Part shown: piece after piece, positions 33,239-49,096 of the stretch | Layout: the number at the start of each line of letters is the position of its first letter | How positions within the stretch are numbered: position 1 is the first letter of the stretch | Assembly: GCF_000375645.1 (NCBI RefSeq) | Contig: NZ_AQWR01000005.1 | Location: forward strand, 168 to 64,167 | DNA: 64,000 bases | DNA from: Porphyromonas bennonis DSM 23058 = JCM 16335 | GTDB taxonomy: Bacteria > Bacteroidota > Bacteroidia > Bacteroidales > Porphyromonadaceae | Direction: 5' to 3' | Notes under the pieces: model-generated | The model's input: the letters and a program-made list of their open reading frames with translations, nothing else | What the model was told of the DNA's origin: nothing | The model's database searches: none | Translations under genes and position numbers: made by a program

Positions 33239-33246
33239 CGGCAACA

Positions 33247-33297
33247 CGTGGAGAGATTTGTGTCTGCTTGCAACCACGCTAAAACAATGCTAAAGGG
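33247..33297 (+). ncRNA. SAM-II-like riboswitch upstream of metK
   Basis: Stem P1 is CGTGG (33247-33251) with CCACG (33274-33278). The loop carries GATTT (33254-33258), an 8-nt gap and TTGCAA (33268-33273). The 3' pseudoknot strand GCTAAAGGG lies at 33289-33297. Order and spacing match the SAM-II (metA-type) class known from Alphaproteobacteria and Bacteroidota. Unlike classic SAM-II, which hides the gene's own ribosome-binding site, metK starts about 150 nt further on. The call is by eye against the remembered consensus. Confidence 0.75.
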
Positions 33298-33310
33298 CAC
33301 TCTTGAGTCA

Positions 33311-33450: not shown

Positions 33451-34749
33451 ATGAAAACTTCTGATACCTACCTCTTTAGCTCCGAGTCTGTGAGCGATGG
33501 ACACCCCGATAAGGTGGCCGACCAGATCTCTGATGCCCTCCTGGACAACTTCCTTGCTCAGGATCCCAAGAGCAAGGTGGCATGTGAGACATTAGTGACT
33601 GCCGGTCAGGTACTTATTGCCGGCGAGATCACCTCTGACGCTTACGTCGACCTGCAGTCTGTCGTGCGAGGAGTGATCGCTGACATCGGTTACACCAAAG
33701 GCGAGTATGGCTTCGATGCGCAGTCGGTCGGTATCCTCAGCGCCATCCACGAGCAGAGTCCTGACATCCATATGGGTGTCGTGCGTGAGTCGGACGAGGA
33801 CCAGGGCGCAGGAGATCAGGGGATTATGTTTGGCTACGCCTCATGTGAGAGCGACAACTATATGCCACTCCCGATCGAGCTGTCTCACTCGATGCTGCAG
33901 ATCCTATCCCAGATCCGCAAGGAGGAGCCGGACCTTATGCCCTACCTTCGTCCTGATGCTAAGGGACAGGTGACACTGGAGTATAATATGGACCGCACTC
34001 CTAAGCGCGTCAATACCATCGTCCTCAGCACACAGCATGATGACTTCGTAAAGCCGCATGATGGGATGAGCCAGGCAGAAGCTGACCGACTGATGCAGGA
34101 GAAGATCTCAGAGGATGTCCGCCGTATTGTGATCCCGAGGCTGATCGAGAAGTACAGCTCTAAGGTCCAGAACCTCCTCGATGATCAGGTCAGGTATCTG
34201 ATCAATCCTACCGGTCGCTTTGTCCTCGGTGGTCCAGCCGGGGATACCGGTCTGACCGGACGTAAGATCATCGTAGATACCTATGGCGGCCGGGCTGCTC
34301 ATGGTGGTGGTGCCTTCAGCGGTAAGGATCCGAGTAAGGTGGATCGCTCCGCTACCTATGCTGCTCGTTATCTCGCCAAAAACCTGGTTGCCGCCGGGGT
34401 GAGCGATGAGATCAAGATCCAGGTCGCCTACGCCATCGGTCAGGCAGATCCGGTGAGCATCTATGTGGATACCTACGGCAGGAGCAGAGTACGTGAGACG
34501 GATGGCGAGATCGCCTCGATGCTGTCCTCTCTCTTCGACCTCAGACCCTATCACATCATCAAGTCACTTCACCTGGAGTCGCCGATCTACAGGGAGAGCT
34601 CTGCCTACGGGCATATCGGCCGCACACCTCGAGTGGCGACGAAGTCCTTTACGGATGGGAATGGTCGGACGCTCACTAAGGAGGTGGAGCTCTTTGCCTG
34701 GGAAAAAACGGATCTCGTCGATAAGGTCAGGGGTGCTTTCCACTTCTGA
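33451..34749 (+). CDS. metK: S-adenosylmethionine synthetase
   Basis: A 432-residue enzyme that makes SAM from methionine and [20 protein letters not shown] at the N terminus and the [16 protein letters not shown] loop near residue 285-300 are diagnostic. It is somewhat longer than E. coli MetK (384 residues), as in other Bacteroidota. It is preceded by a 200-nt leader with a SAM-II-like aptamer and followed by the methyltransferase gene after 21 bp. Confidence 0.98.
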
Positions 34750-44060: not shown

Positions 44061-44178
44061 ACTCATTTTTCTCTACCTGCCGACCTGATTTTCACTGCTT
44101 GCGATGCTATAACCTTATTCTGAGAAATGGTTTTGTAACACAGTATTTATTCCGTAAATAGAATAATCATCAAATATA

Positions 44179-44209
44179 TTTGCTACTTAAATGTATTTTC
44201 GTACCTTTG
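44179..44209 (+). promoter_or_regulatory. Promoter of the metY-metX-thrA leader
   Basis: TTTG (44179-44182), a 19-bp spacer and TACCTTTG (44202-44209) are the best full match to the Bacteroidota promoter in the window. The start of the Met-rich leader peptide follows 22 bp after the -7 box. Confidence 0.85.
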
Positions 44210-44231
44210 TCACACTGTTCAAATAAACATT

Positions 44232-44468
44232 ATGAGACAAAAGAGCTACATATCCCTCTGCAGCATGCTGCCGCAGATGATGATGCGGATGTACGGCGTA
44301 CACTCGTCGGCTCTATCGTGTCCACACTTGGTCTCGAAACTATTTCCGAAGACAACATTCATGCACACGAAGCGAAACCGACGAGCCAGAAGCTCAGATT
44401 GGTTTCGCTTCACTTTTATCATCACATACACTACACCCTACCATTATGTCACACTTTTCTCAGCCTAA
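44232..44468 (+). CDS. Met-rich leader ORF (putative leader peptide)
   Basis: The frame opens with ATG close behind the promoter and reads MRQKSYISLCSMLPQMMMRM over its first 20 codons: six Met in 20 codons, four of them at codons 16-18 and 20. The rest shows no domain. It ends at 44468, overlapping the metY start by 23 bp. I read it as the sensing part of an attenuator for the methionine genes behind it. The lack of an early stop codon is unusual for a leader peptide. Confidence 0.55.
   Translation: MRQKSYISLCSMLPQMMMRMYGVHSSALSCPHLVSKLFPKTTFMHTKRNRRARSSDWFRFTFIITYTTPYHYVTLFSA
44303..44417 (+). promoter_or_regulatory. Candidate attenuator: antiterminator and terminator stems
   Basis: Terminator form: GAAGCGAAACC (44369-44379) pairs perfectly with GGTTTCGCTTC (44401-44411), with an inner GAGC/GCTC stem, then TTTT at 44414-44417. 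Antiterminator form: CTCGTCGG (44303-44310) pairs perfectly with CCGACGAG (44378-44385), which removes the end of the terminator arm and the inner stem. A smaller hairpin TGTAC/GTACA (44290-44302) sits between the Met codons and the antiterminator arm. Confidence 0.55.
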
Positions 44469-45747
44469 GTACACTCCTGAGACCATTGCACTCCACTATG
44501 GCTACGATCCTCTTGCTACCGGTCACCATGCGGTGTCCGTTCCGCTGGTAGCCTCGACCGCATACGCCTTCGCCGACTCACAGGAGGCGATCGACATCTT
44601 TGCACTCCGCAAGGAGGGGTTCCTCTACTCCCGACTCGGCAGTCCCACTGTGGACGTCCTCGAGAAGCGACTCGCCGCATATGAGGACGGAGTCGGTGCA
44701 GTGGTTACCGCGACGGGACAGAGCGCCCACAGTACACTCTTCCTCACCCTGCTCCGATCTGGGGACCACGTCGTCGCCTCCAATAGCATCTACGGCGGGA
44801 CCTTTAATCTCCTCGAGTCGACCCTACCCCGCTTCGGCATCACCACTACCTTTGTAGACATCAATAATGCAGAAGAAGTGGAGGCTGCCATCACCGACAA
44901 GACCAAGCTGGTCTTCTGCGAGACACTCAGCAACCCACGGCTAACCATCACCAATATCCCCGAGGTATCCGAGATAGCTCATCGCCACGGTCTGCCTCTC
45001 GTGGCAGACATTACCCTCACCGAGGGGATCAGCCATGCCATTAGTGAGGGCGCCGACGTCCTCACATCTGCTCTCACCAAGATTGTCTGCGGCAACGGCA
45101 CGACCCTTGGAGGGGCGATCATCGACTCCGGTCGGTACGACTGGGGTGGCGGGCGTTTCCCCGAGCTCTCAGAGCCCTGCCCCACATACAACAACATCTC
45201 CTTTACGGAAACCTTCGGACCCCAGGCACTCATCACGGCACTCCGCGCTATCGGTCTGCGGGACCTCGGGACCGGGCTCAGTCCCCTCAATGCCTACGAG
45301 ATGATCAAGGGACTGGAGACGCTCGACCTGAGGGCGCACGCCATTAGTGACCGTACCCGTGAGCTGGCTGAGTGGCTGGAGGCTAATCCAAAGGTCGCCT
45401 GGGTTCGCTACCCCACCCTTCCCTCTCACGATCAGAGCGACCTCTGCCGGACTTTGCTCGGAGGCTTTGGCGGTGGGATCCTCACCTTTGCACCCAAGGG
45501 TGGTTATCATGCGGCTCGCAAGGTAACTGAGAGTACCCGGCTCTTTACACTCGTTGCTAATCTCGGTGACAGCAAGTCCCTCATTACCCATCCCGCCGGC
45601 ACCACCCACAGCCAGATGACCGAAGAGGAGCTCCGCCAGGCGGGTATCTCAGATGATCTCATACGTCTCTCTATCGGTCTAGAGAGCATCGAGGACCTGA
45701 AGGCAGATCTCCAATACGCACTCGACCAATCATGCTCGGACAAGTAA
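44446..45747 (+). CDS. metY: O-acetylhomoserine sulfhydrylase
   Basis: A 433-residue PLP enzyme of the Cys/Met metabolism family that makes homocysteine from O-acetylhomoserine and sulfide. SVPLVASTAYAFADSQEA and YSRLGSPTVDVLEKRLAAYE in the first 90 residues and the PLP-lysine in LTSALTKIVCGNGTTLGG near residue 205 are visible. It could instead use cysteine (cystathionine gamma-synthase), but length and neighbours favour MetY. It overlaps metX by 16 bp. Confidence 0.92.
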   Translation: MSHFSQPKYTPETIALHYGYDPLATGHHAVSVPLVASTAYAFADSQEAIDIFALRKEGFLYSRLGSPTVDVLEKRLAAYEDGVGAVVTATGQSAHSTLFLTLLRSGDHVVASNSIYGGTFNLLESTLPRFGITTTFVDINNAEEVEAAITDKTKLVFCETLSNPRLTITNIPEVSEIAHRHGLPLVADITLTEGISHAISEGADVLTSALTKIVCGNGTTLGGAIIDSGRYDWGGGRFPELSEPCPTYNNISFTETFGPQALITALRAIGLRDLGTGLSPLNAYEMIKGLETLDLRAHAISDRTRELAEWLEANPKVAWVRYPTLPSHDQSDLCRTLLGGFGGGILTFAPKGGYHAARKVTESTRLFTLVANLGDSKSLITHPAGTTHSQMTEEELRQAGISDDLIRLSIGLESIEDLKADLQYALDQSCSDK

Positions 45748-46679
45748 CGCTCTCGGGATTCACGAACTGGCGAGGGGAGAGTATCCCCTCACTCACACTC
45801 ACCTACCAGGTGGCAGGTCCCGCCCTCGGTGCCGCTCCGATCGTCCTCGTCTGCCATGCCCTCACCGGCAACTCTGCCGTCGTCGGTCCTGAGGGTTGGT
45901 GGGCAAAGCTCATCGGTCCGGGGCAGACGATCGACACGACCCGCTATACCATCCTCTCGATCGACATCCCGGGGAATGAGTATGCCGGCTCTGCGCCACT
46001 GGACGACCCATCCCTGCTCAGTGTCAGGGATGTGGCTCGCCTCTGGCTGCTCGTGCTGAGGGAGCTCCGTGTCGATCACCTCTACGCCCTCATCGGGCCC
46101 AGTCTCGGTGGAGGCATTGCCTGGCAGATTGCCGCCCTTGAGCCGACGCTGGCTGAGCTCCTCTTCCCCATAGCCACTGACTACAAGGCCTCCGACTGGC
46201 TTCTTGCCCAGACTGAGGTACAGAGACTGATACTGGATCACTCCGACCGCCCGATCCACGACGCGCGGGTCCACGCCATGCTCACCTACCGCACGCCGAA
46301 GTCTCTTATAGGTCGCTTTGAGGGGAAAACAACCGACAGCGGACTCCCCAGAGTACTTGACTGGCTTGACTACCACGGTCGCACGCTGGAGGGACGCTTC
46401 AGCCTAAGCGCCTACCGGGTGATGACCTTCCTTACGTCCACGATCCACGCGGCGGAGAGTGAGAAAGAGCTGACACGGATCGCCTCCGACATCCACCTTG
46501 TTGCCATTGACAGCGACCGCCTCTTCCCCTACTTCATCGCCTGTGAGACCATTGAGCGACTCAGGTGCTCCGGCAAAGAGCGTGCGGAGCTCCACACCAT
46601 TGTCTCCGACCATGGTCACGACGCTTTCCTCATCGAGTATGACCAGCTCTGCAGGATCATGAGTCCCTTCTTTCCTTAA
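45732..46679 (+). CDS. metX: Homoserine O-acetyltransferase
   Basis: A 315-residue alpha/beta hydrolase-fold acyltransferase. VLVCHALTGNSAVVG, the nucleophile elbow GPSLGGGIAWQIA near residue 120 and the C-terminal SDHGHDAFLIEYDQL with the catalytic histidine are all in place. It activates homoserine for MetY. It is coupled to metY by overlap and followed by thrA after 20 bp. Confidence 0.94.
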   Translation: MLGQVTLSGFTNWRGESIPSLTLTYQVAGPALGAAPIVLVCHALTGNSAVVGPEGWWAKLIGPGQTIDTTRYTILSIDIPGNEYAGSAPLDDPSLLSVRDVARLWLLVLRELRVDHLYALIGPSLGGGIAWQIAALEPTLAELLFPIATDYKASDWLLAQTEVQRLILDHSDRPIHDARVHAMLTYRTPKSLIGRFEGKTTDSGLPRVLDWLDYHGRTLEGRFSLSAYRVMTFLTSTIHAAESEKELTRIASDIHLVAIDSDRLFPYFIACETIERLRCSGKERAELHTIVSDHGHDAFLIEYDQLCRIMSPFFP

Positions 46680-46699: not shown

Positions 46700-49096
46700 A
46701 TGCGTGTGCTAAAGTTTGGGGGCAAGTCCCTCGCTAATGGGGAGCCCCTCCGTCTCTCCCTCCGGATCATCCAAGACGTTGTCGCAAGTGACGAAACCCC
46801 ACCCTTAGTCATCGTCTCTGCTCGTGGCAAGACGACAGACCGACTCCTCGAGTTGGCTCACCTCGCCGAGGCCGGGGAGCCCTGGCGGGAGAGCTACCGA
46901 CAGCTCCTCTCTGACCAGGGGGAGGGAACGGAAGGGCTGTCAGATCGACTTACCCGACTCCTCGAGGGAATAGAGCTCCTGCGAGAGTGCAGTGCTAAGA
47001 CGCTGGATGAGGTACTCTCCTTTGGCGAGCTCTTCTCCGCCCACCACATCGCCCGGCTCCTGTCCCACGCCCTACCGATCGACGCCGGGGACCTCATCGT
47101 CACCGACAGCTCCTACGGAGAGGCGAGTGTGGAGCTCAAGGAGTCGGAGGAAAAGACACGCAGCTACTTCGCTCACCTCCCAGCCGGCACACTCCCGATC
47201 GTGACCGGCTTCATCGCCCGAAGCGAGGACGGAACGCGAACCACCCTCGGAAGAAACGGAAGCAACTACACCGCTGCCCTCCTTGCCAACTTCCTCGATG
47301 CCACGCAGCTCGACAACTACAGCAATATCGACGGCATCTACTCTGCCCACCCGGGCATCGTCCTGTCGGCGCACAAGATCCCCGAGCTCTCCTACACCGA
47401 GGCGGCCGAGCTCTCCCAGCTTGGGGCTGAGATCCTCCACTACAAGACGATCGATCCACTTGCTGCCAAGCAGATCCCCCTCCGCATACTCGACTCCTTC
47501 AGCCCCGAGGGATGCCGCCAGGAGGGGACACTCGTCCATCTCCTCCCCTCCTCTCAGCAGGCAAGAGCCATTGCCGCCCTCTCCGGCAAGGCGCTGATCC
47601 ACTTCGAGCGGCACGAGATGAAGGGGTTACCCGGCTTCGACGCCAGGATCTTCTCCGTCCTCCGGGACGAGGGTATCAGCACCGGGATCATCTCCCAGGG
47701 ATCGACGGAGCGCGGTGTCGGCTTCGTCGTGGCGGAGAGTGAGGCTGATCACGCCGTGGCGTCACTTAGGCGAGAGTTTGACCGAGACATCCACCGTCCC
47801 ACGATCGAGGCGACGAAGGGACTCTCCGTCATTGCCCTCATCGGGGTAAGCCTCTCCGGCTTCGATCACCCCTACTCTGCCCTGATCCGAAACGGCATCA
47901 CGCCCCTACTGGTCAATAACGCCGTCACCGGCGACACGCTCTTCCTCCTCGTGCGTGACGAAGAGGTACCGAAGGCGCTCAATGTGATCCACGGGGAAAT
48001 GTTTGCCCACGCCAAGCGGATCCATGTCGCCTGTATCGGTCACGGTACAGTGGGTGGCGCCTTCCTCGACCGAGTGACTGAGGAGCGGGCGCGGATCCTC
48101 TCCGACAAGGCGGTCGATCTCCGCCTCTTCGCCATCGCCAGCAGCCGTCAGCTGCTCCTCGACCAAGAGGGCATCGGTACCGACTGGAGGGAGCGAAAGG
48201 CAGCCGCCCCAGCTTCCGAGGACCCGATCCGCGAGATCATCCACTATGCGGAGGCGAACTACCTTGAGAATGTTGTCGTCATCGACAACACCGCCTCGCC
48301 TGCCATCGCCGACCGCTACTGCGAGCTCGCTGAGCAGGGCTACGACCTCGTCTCTTCCAATAAGATCTTCAATACCGGTCCCTACCCTGACTACCTCCGA
48401 CTCCGTGAGATCCTGCGGGACCACCGCCGAACCTATAGGTATGAGACCAATGTGGGAGCCGGACTGCCCCTGATCGACAACCTCAGGCTCCTCCACCTCT
48501 CCGGAGATCGCATCACCCGTATTAGGGGGCTCTTCAGTGGCACGCTCGGGTATATCCTCTCCTCCCTCGGCGACCGCACCTCTTACGCTGAGGCGATCCG
48601 CTCCGCCGCCCGTCTCGGCTACTCAGAGCCGGACCCAAGGCAGGACCTCAATGGTCTCGACGTGGCGCGGAAGTTGCTCATCCTTGCCCGCGAGGTGGGC
48701 ATATCGGCAGAGATGTCGGACATAGAGGTGGAGGACTTAGTCCCCGAGACCCTCAGGGACTGCTCAGCGGAGCACTTCATGGAGCGACTGGATGAGACTC
48801 AGGTCTACTTCGAGAGCCTATCTGAGACCTCGCAGGGGGAGGTGCTGAGATATGTCGGGGAGCTGACCATCGGGGACAGCACCGATGCCGCCCGGCTTTC
48901 CTGCGGTCTCAGAAGTCTTCCCGCCGATAGCGCCCTCGGCTCAGTCAGTGGTGCGGACTCCTGCTTCGAGATCTATACCGAGAGCTATGGGGACCTTCCC
49001 TTTGTCATCCGCGGGGCCGGAGCAGGCGCGGAAGTGACTGCGCTCGGAGTCTTTGGGGACCTCCTAAGGATTGCCGACCGTGGCGAACTCTCCTGA
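46700..49096 (+). CDS. thrA: Bifunctional aspartokinase/homoserine dehydrogenase
   Basis: A 798-residue fusion: aspartokinase in the first 280 residues (MRVLKFGGKSLANGE, TLGRNGSNYTAALLA), two ACT-like domains to about 430, then homoserine dehydrogenase (GHGTVGGAFLDRV, YETNVGAGLPLIDNL, GLFSGTLGYILSSL, EPDPRQDLNGLDVARK). It feeds homoserine to MetX. Its place behind metY-metX under a Met-rich leader suggests the MetL role rather than the threonine role. Two kinase positions differ from E. coli ThrA: FGGKS for FGGTS and YSNIDG for WTDVDG. Confidence 0.95.
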   Translation: MRVLKFGGKSLANGEPLRLSLRIIQDVVASDETPPLVIVSARGKTTDRLLELAHLAEAGEPWRESYRQLLSDQGEGTEGLSDRLTRLLEGIELLRECSAKTLDEVLSFGELFSAHHIARLLSHALPIDAGDLIVTDSSYGEASVELKESEEKTRSYFAHLPAGTLPIVTGFIARSEDGTRTTLGRNGSNYTAALLANFLDATQLDNYSNIDGIYSAHPGIVLSAHKIPELSYTEAAELSQLGAEILHYKTIDPLAAKQIPLRILDSFSPEGCRQEGTLVHLLPSSQQARAIAALSGKALIHFERHEMKGLPGFDARIFSVLRDEGISTGIISQGSTERGVGFVVAESEADHAVASLRREFDRDIHRPTIEATKGLSVIALIGVSLSGFDHPYSALIRNGITPLLVNNAVTGDTLFLLVRDEEVPKALNVIHGEMFAHAKRIHVACIGHGTVGGAFLDRVTEERARILSDKAVDLRLFAIASSRQLLLDQEGIGTDWRERKAAAPASEDPIREIIHYAEANYLENVVVIDNTASPAIADRYCELAEQGYDLVSSNKIFNTGPYPDYLRLREILRDHRRTYRYETNVGAGLPLIDNLRLLHLSGDRITRIRGLFSGTLGYILSSLGDRTSYAEAIRSAARLGYSEPDPRQDLNGLDVARKLLILAREVGISAEMSDIEVEDLVPETLRDCSAEHFMERLDETQVYFESLSETSQGEVLRYVGELTIGDSTDAARLSCGLRSLPADSALGSVSGADSCFEIYTESYGDLPFVIRGAGAGAEVTALGVFGDLLRIADRGELS

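Follow-up and report, generated by a model that had tools for sequence, protein, structure and literature searches.

A candidate methionine leader-peptide attenuator ahead of metY-metX-thrA in Porphyromonas bennonis and related Bacteroidales

The metY-metX-thrA genes of Porphyromonas bennonis DSM 23058 are preceded by a Met-rich reading frame and a set of competing RNA arms, which we read as a ribosome-mediated transcription attenuator that would sense the methionine supply and control the operon (estimated probability about 0.85). The reading draws on the elements seen in the sequence, on their conservation and compensatory changes among relatives, and on a peptide composition that fits the genes downstream. 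A Met attenuator had been proposed here in a preliminary description, and it is supported by leaders, terminators and antiterminators that recur before metY with compensatory changes.

The leader and its operon in the window

The window is the whole stretch of DNA that was analysed (64,000 nt; contig NZ_AQWR01000005.1, positions 168 to 64,167) and derives from a 2.0 Mb draft genome (assembly GCF_000375645.1). The following features are predicted (window coordinates):

44202-44209, + strand: -7 promoter box TAccTTTG, from the sequence, and TTTG some 20 nt before it (near 44179-44182)
44232-44468, + strand: Met-rich leader reading frame, 78 codons in the window and 36 in the sister genome
44277-44291, + strand: control codons Met-Met-Met-Arg-Met (MMMRM; ATGATGATGCGGATG), from the sequence
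44294-44309 (approximate), + strand: small hairpin CGGCG/CGTCG, from folding, which would mask the antiterminator arm absent a stalled ribosome
44303-44310, + strand: antiterminator 5' arm CTCGTCGG, with a second stretch at 44316-44324
44369-44411, + strand: terminator hairpin, then ACTTTTA, from folding and a perfect stem
44378-44385, + strand: antiterminator 3' arm CCGACGAG, within the left side of the terminator hairpin
44446-45747, + strand: metY, O-acetylhomoserine sulfhydrylase family (best NCBIfam TIGR01326, slightly under cut-off)
45732-46679, + strand: metX-like homoserine acyltransferase (TIGR01392, under cut-off)
46700-49096, + strand: thrA, aspartate kinase/homoserine dehydrogenase (best NF006959, under cut-off)

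The three genes after the leader serve Met synthesis, and their operon arrangement is conserved. The leader frame (ATG at 44232, stop at 44466-44468) begins MRQKSYISLCSMLPQMMMRMYG and contains, as the preliminary description had it, six Met in its first 20 codons, with a run of three and a fourth two codons on. Among the 594 ATG-started ORFs of at least 15 codons in the six frames of the window, the leader is the only one with at least six Met in 20 codons, and none of 4,000 dinucleotide shuffles of 44211-44445 yielded a six-Met ORF; the Met run is not a product of chance. The motif ATGATGATGCRRATG was found again at metY leaders of the window's family, though as a pattern by itself it is near the reversed control (13 versus 8 matches), and only its position is informative. 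The element at 44202-44209 is presumably a Bacteroidetes-type -7 box (consensus TAnnTTTG), and boxes of this type also stand ahead of many leaders in relatives.

The leader is more stably folded than its shuffles (z -3.3; for 44290-44420, z -3.6). The terminator stem is perfect over 11 bp (44369-44379/44401-44411), and the folded hairpin reaches -23.8 kcal/mol with a left side that extends to 44386, so that its upper half and the antiterminator pairing are in competition. The proposed complementarity of the 8-nt arm at 44303-44310 to 44378-44385 is perfect, and a second pairing (44316-44324/44362-44370, 89%) is nested within it. The antiterminator state (44303-44391) folds to -24.8 kcal/mol; the two states are thus balanced. 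As to the earlier claim of an 11-bp terminator followed by TTTT, the stem is borne out, but the tail (AC-TTTT-A) is a weak T tract and the terminator was not detected by a generic terminator scan; several members of the window's family have a similarly weak tract. An upstream hairpin that a stalled ribosome would open is predicted by folding, but not at 44290-44302 as first described: folding prefers CGGCG/CGTCG at about 44294-44309, which holds most of the antiterminator arm.

The transcription start, leader translation, stalling and methionine response that we infer would combine as follows. RNA polymerase would start shortly after the -7 box and transcribe the leader, with a ribosome following on the Met-rich peptide. 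With ample Met-tRNA, the ribosome would clear the Met codons, and the terminator would form and stop transcription before metY. With scarce Met-tRNA, the ribosome would stall at 44277-44291 and open the masking small hairpin; the freed arm at 44303-44310 would then pair with 44378-44385, block the terminator, and allow the operon to be read. A Met sensor is odd, since protein synthesis always begins with that very amino acid, and low methionine should slow fMet initiation too, which could weaken such a sensor. Further counterpoints are the weak T tract and the window's reading frame, which has no stop before the terminator.

This frame, which crosses the terminator into metY, had been singled out as unusual. 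The overlap is present in the window, but it is private to it and carries no coding signal: the leader stops before the terminator in 26 of the 27 units compared, i.e. in the sister and the other 25. A MetY scan of genome contigs gave a single close relative, Porphyromonas sp. HMSC065F10 (its metY is 94% identical). In the sister genome the leader ends at a TAA codon, which is AAA in the window (at about 44334-44342). The differences between window and sister number 3/2/6 by codon position before the sister's stop and 5/7/5 after it (small numbers), i.e. the extension shows no coding bias; the sole indel is 3 nt, and the Met run and arms are kept. Given the sister's TAA and the lack of a third-position preference afterwards, the metY overlap is best read as the result of a lost stop. 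The window copy may hence be partly degenerate, and regulation may be looser than in relatives; a ribosome running on could melt the terminator, or else its translation could be coupled to that of metY.

It is conceivable, if unlikely, that this copy is decayed or deregulated, with a real mechanism in the family and a largely unregulated metY in this strain. The AAA in place of the sister's TAA, the unbiased differences after it, the stops of the 26 other units and the ACTTTTA tract all fit such decay; against it, the terminator and antiterminator arms are almost unchanged relative to the sister and form states of balanced energy, the Met run has been kept, and the sister shares the same T tract together with an intact stop. 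As no stop precedes the terminator in the window, the attenuator is claimed for the leader family, with the window as a possibly altered copy that would work alike.

Conservation and compensatory changes before metY

One MetY lineage, which spans four Bacteroidales families, contributes 20 metY loci to the comparison, and 19 of them have a Met-rich leader, a terminator, and an arm able to pair with it; an example of the short Met-rich leaders in relatives is MKRTTYMMSMMMMQMMSASGSSHLYFA, up to its stop. In the window's family (metY loci of at least 50% identity, n=13), a Met-rich leader and then a strong hairpin precede metY at 12 loci, and G019 (L007) is the sole one with no Met leader upstream. 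The nearest MetY of other families (f16, f96, f99) have the leader in 7/7 cases, all as two units in series; with G024, a tandem in the window's family, the total is eight of the 19 loci. More distant Bacteroidales metY loci (L016-L031, L161-L185) show nothing like this Met leader over some 500 nt, hence the leader follows one MetY lineage. The order of parts throughout the 27 units is Met codons, pairing arm, stop codon (except in the window), terminator. This conservation check on relatives, in which the Met run and the stems recurred in four families with compensatory changes, was one that the attenuator hypothesis survived.

Two complete attenuator units, each with its own leader and terminator, were observed before metY at L008, L015, L157, L158 and L186-L189. 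In the distal leaders of L015, L157, L158, L186-L189 and L196, the TAnnTTTG box is only 13-17 nt before the ATG, which suggests nearly leaderless transcripts. An order-wide pattern (ATGATGNNNATGATGATG) was rejected: on inspection, its loci proved for the most part to be chance matches and coding sequence rich in Asp or His, not leaders.

In most units, the region 3' of the Met codons pairs with the left side or loop of the terminator better than shuffles do (combined p about 3e-28, which serves to rank evidence only, as the units are related and so not independent); those not individually below 0.05 are G006 and the proximal units of G132 and G024. Another 16 flavobacterial-type units agree (combined p again over related sequences, for ranking only), and folding with the ribosome footprint blocked gave the antiterminator in nearly all units.

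The proximal antiterminator comprises nine pairs that are 100% paired; three of these have changed in both partners, pairing in slid controls falls to 23-58%, and the arms were placed in exact register by MAFFT, which is blind to structure. In the distal units, pairing amounts to 87.5% in the antiterminator, where two pairs have changed in both partners, and to 99% in the terminator, where six of nine pairs have done so. The distal left arm varies as CTTT, CTC, CGC and CCC, each with matching partners, and keeps its pairing with both antiterminator and terminator despite the change in sequence; such three-way agreement is a prediction of an attenuator. The compensatory changes come from these more distant units (alignments A1 and A2), because the arms of the window's family diverge and are misaligned by MAFFT, and because those of window and sister are identical or nearly so and therefore uninformative. 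Pair counts for the window's family (alignment A3) were discarded, with the 3' arms misaligned.

A rival reading is a riboswitch of a kind not yet described, with SAM or methionine as its direct ligand. It would share the terminator/antiterminator logic, which is common to riboswitches, and SAM-I elements do occupy the same place in related genomes. We consider this very improbable: the leader has no conserved aptamer-like core, Rfam covariance models (SAM riboswitches and T-box leaders included) gave no match in 44100-44560 up to E 1, and it is the Met codons and competing arms that are chiefly conserved. Least credible of all is that the ORF product is a working small protein rich in Met (e.g. 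for metal binding) and that the hairpins are ordinary. The reading frame is conserved and indels are mostly multiples of three, but apart from the Met (or Met/Cys) content the residues and the length vary widely, and in the cases examined the terminator and pairing arm always follow and sulfur amino-acid genes nearly always lie downstream.

Met/Cys leaders, SAM riboswitches and sulfur genes in other families

SAM-I and SAM-II riboswitches bind SAM directly and need no translation. Like the attenuator read here, they place metY and metK under the sulfur amino-acid supply; unlike it, they find no match in the window leader. The window itself contains a SAM-II riboswitch (33242-33303; Rfam RF01726, 51.6 bits) before metK (33451-34749); with SAM-II before metK and the Met leader before metY, two sensors of the same pathway would lie 11 kb apart.

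A class-wide search yielded family f173, flavobacterial by appearance, whose MetY are 71-76% identical to the f99 type. Among 36 f173 metY loci, 23 bear SAM-I-like leaders (Rfam confirms 14, and the others were recognised by motif), nine have Met/Cys-rich or Met-rich leaders and terminators, and four have neither. None of the 36 has both a peptide leader and SAM-I before metY; for independent loci, a complete lack of overlap would have a probability of about 8e-6, a figure that shared ancestry weakens. The flavobacterial-type leaders are best read as sensing Met and Cys. Met+Cys-rich leaders stand before metY at the flavobacterial-looking loci L192, L193, L196, L197, L205, L211, L212, L220 and L222. 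Those of L205 are MSKVLCNMCCMMCGNFSAGNTIA and MKSLLNKMMCCCMMCMCMHPARYVLKGGT in series, each to its stop, and at L197 and L205 a SAM-I element follows metY, ahead of the next gene. At L193 and L197, an extra small ORF of about 55-60 codons lies between the leader's terminator and metY.

Further Met/Cys leaders at other genes were found with a covariance model of the distal units (R1), which also matched many ordinary terminators, so that hits were retained only if they scored high and had a Met/Cys ORF. At L235 (f140), MNNNFTYTLSTINRPMMCCMMCI and MTTFNFQLLTFNLLMCMCCMMYLRMRSATTMQCCKS follow one another ahead of two genes, one for an aldo/keto reductase and one that is nitrite/sulfite reductase-like; MNYTIHTILNKGMMCCMMCCCPRGMEMSC precedes a sulfite reductase-like gene at L245 (f163), and MMLFVCNMCCMMWKNPQSISIA precedes serine acetyltransferase-like (cysE-like) and cysteine synthase-like (cysK-like) genes at L277 (all four peptides to their stops). 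MMCCMMC leaders, mostly two in series, were seen near nitrite/sulfite reductase genes at L233, L235, L236, L239 and L245; the first gene after the leaders at L235 and L236 is the aldo/keto reductase, and at L234 two leaders lie upstream of an OsmC-like gene. The leaders near sulfite-reductase and cysteine-synthesis genes widen the theme to sulfur assimilation. We lean, with some reserve, towards an undescribed and widespread class of Bacteroidota attenuators, with Met in some orders and Met+Cys in others, commonly in tandem, replacing SAM-I before the same gene, and also governing sulfite reduction and cysteine synthesis.

Known systems and implications

Leader-peptide attenuators are known for several amino acids; to our knowledge, a clear one for Met is hardly documented. 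The trp, his, leu and thr attenuators of Proteobacteria are built like the leaders described here: a short ORF with many codons for the amino acid that the operon makes, an antiterminator that competes with a terminator, and the biosynthetic operon downstream. The present leaders differ in that they would sense Met (or Met+Cys), occur in Bacteroidota, are often two in series, and are exchanged with SAM-I riboswitches, and in that the window copy lacks a stop before the terminator.

Naville and Gautheret (2010) noted leader peptides as known only in Proteobacteria and Actinobacteria, and added Firmicutes (PMC2965389). A Met leader-peptide attenuator (MSTTSDRTPATEATTTPGARCMCRRMCAF) has been proposed for the metL leader before metNIQ of Streptomyces lividans (PMC8079986, Table 4), which differs in belonging to Actinobacteria, in its few Met codons mixed with Cys, and in its transporter operon; no sequence relation was seen. 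The polycysteine leaderless ORFs of mycobacteria (Canestrari 2020), cited in PMC13236596 as translation attenuation, likewise use a short ORF upstream to sense a sulfur amino acid, in some cases very close to the transcription start, but differ in sensing Cys rather than Met, in attenuating translation, and in occurring in Mycobacteria. Within the same phylum, strong clues to leader-peptide attenuation before amino-acid operons come from Flavobacterium psychrophilum, the main text naming no Met or Met/Cys leader (PMC9723704). In the part of the literature that was searched, no Met leader is described for Bacteroidota.

On the sequences compared, the predicted mechanism is ordinary; the novelty is in the amino-acid specificity and the setting, and the window leader appears to belong to a wider Met/Cys set. 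With loci that have a single unit, a pair, none, or SAM-I instead, the sensing of charged Met-tRNA and of SAM can be compared at the same gene, and the leader is a testable case of transcription-translation coupling in Bacteroidota. For members of the phylum from the gut, the mouth and the environment, the leaders suggest a rule by which sulfur assimilation is regulated.
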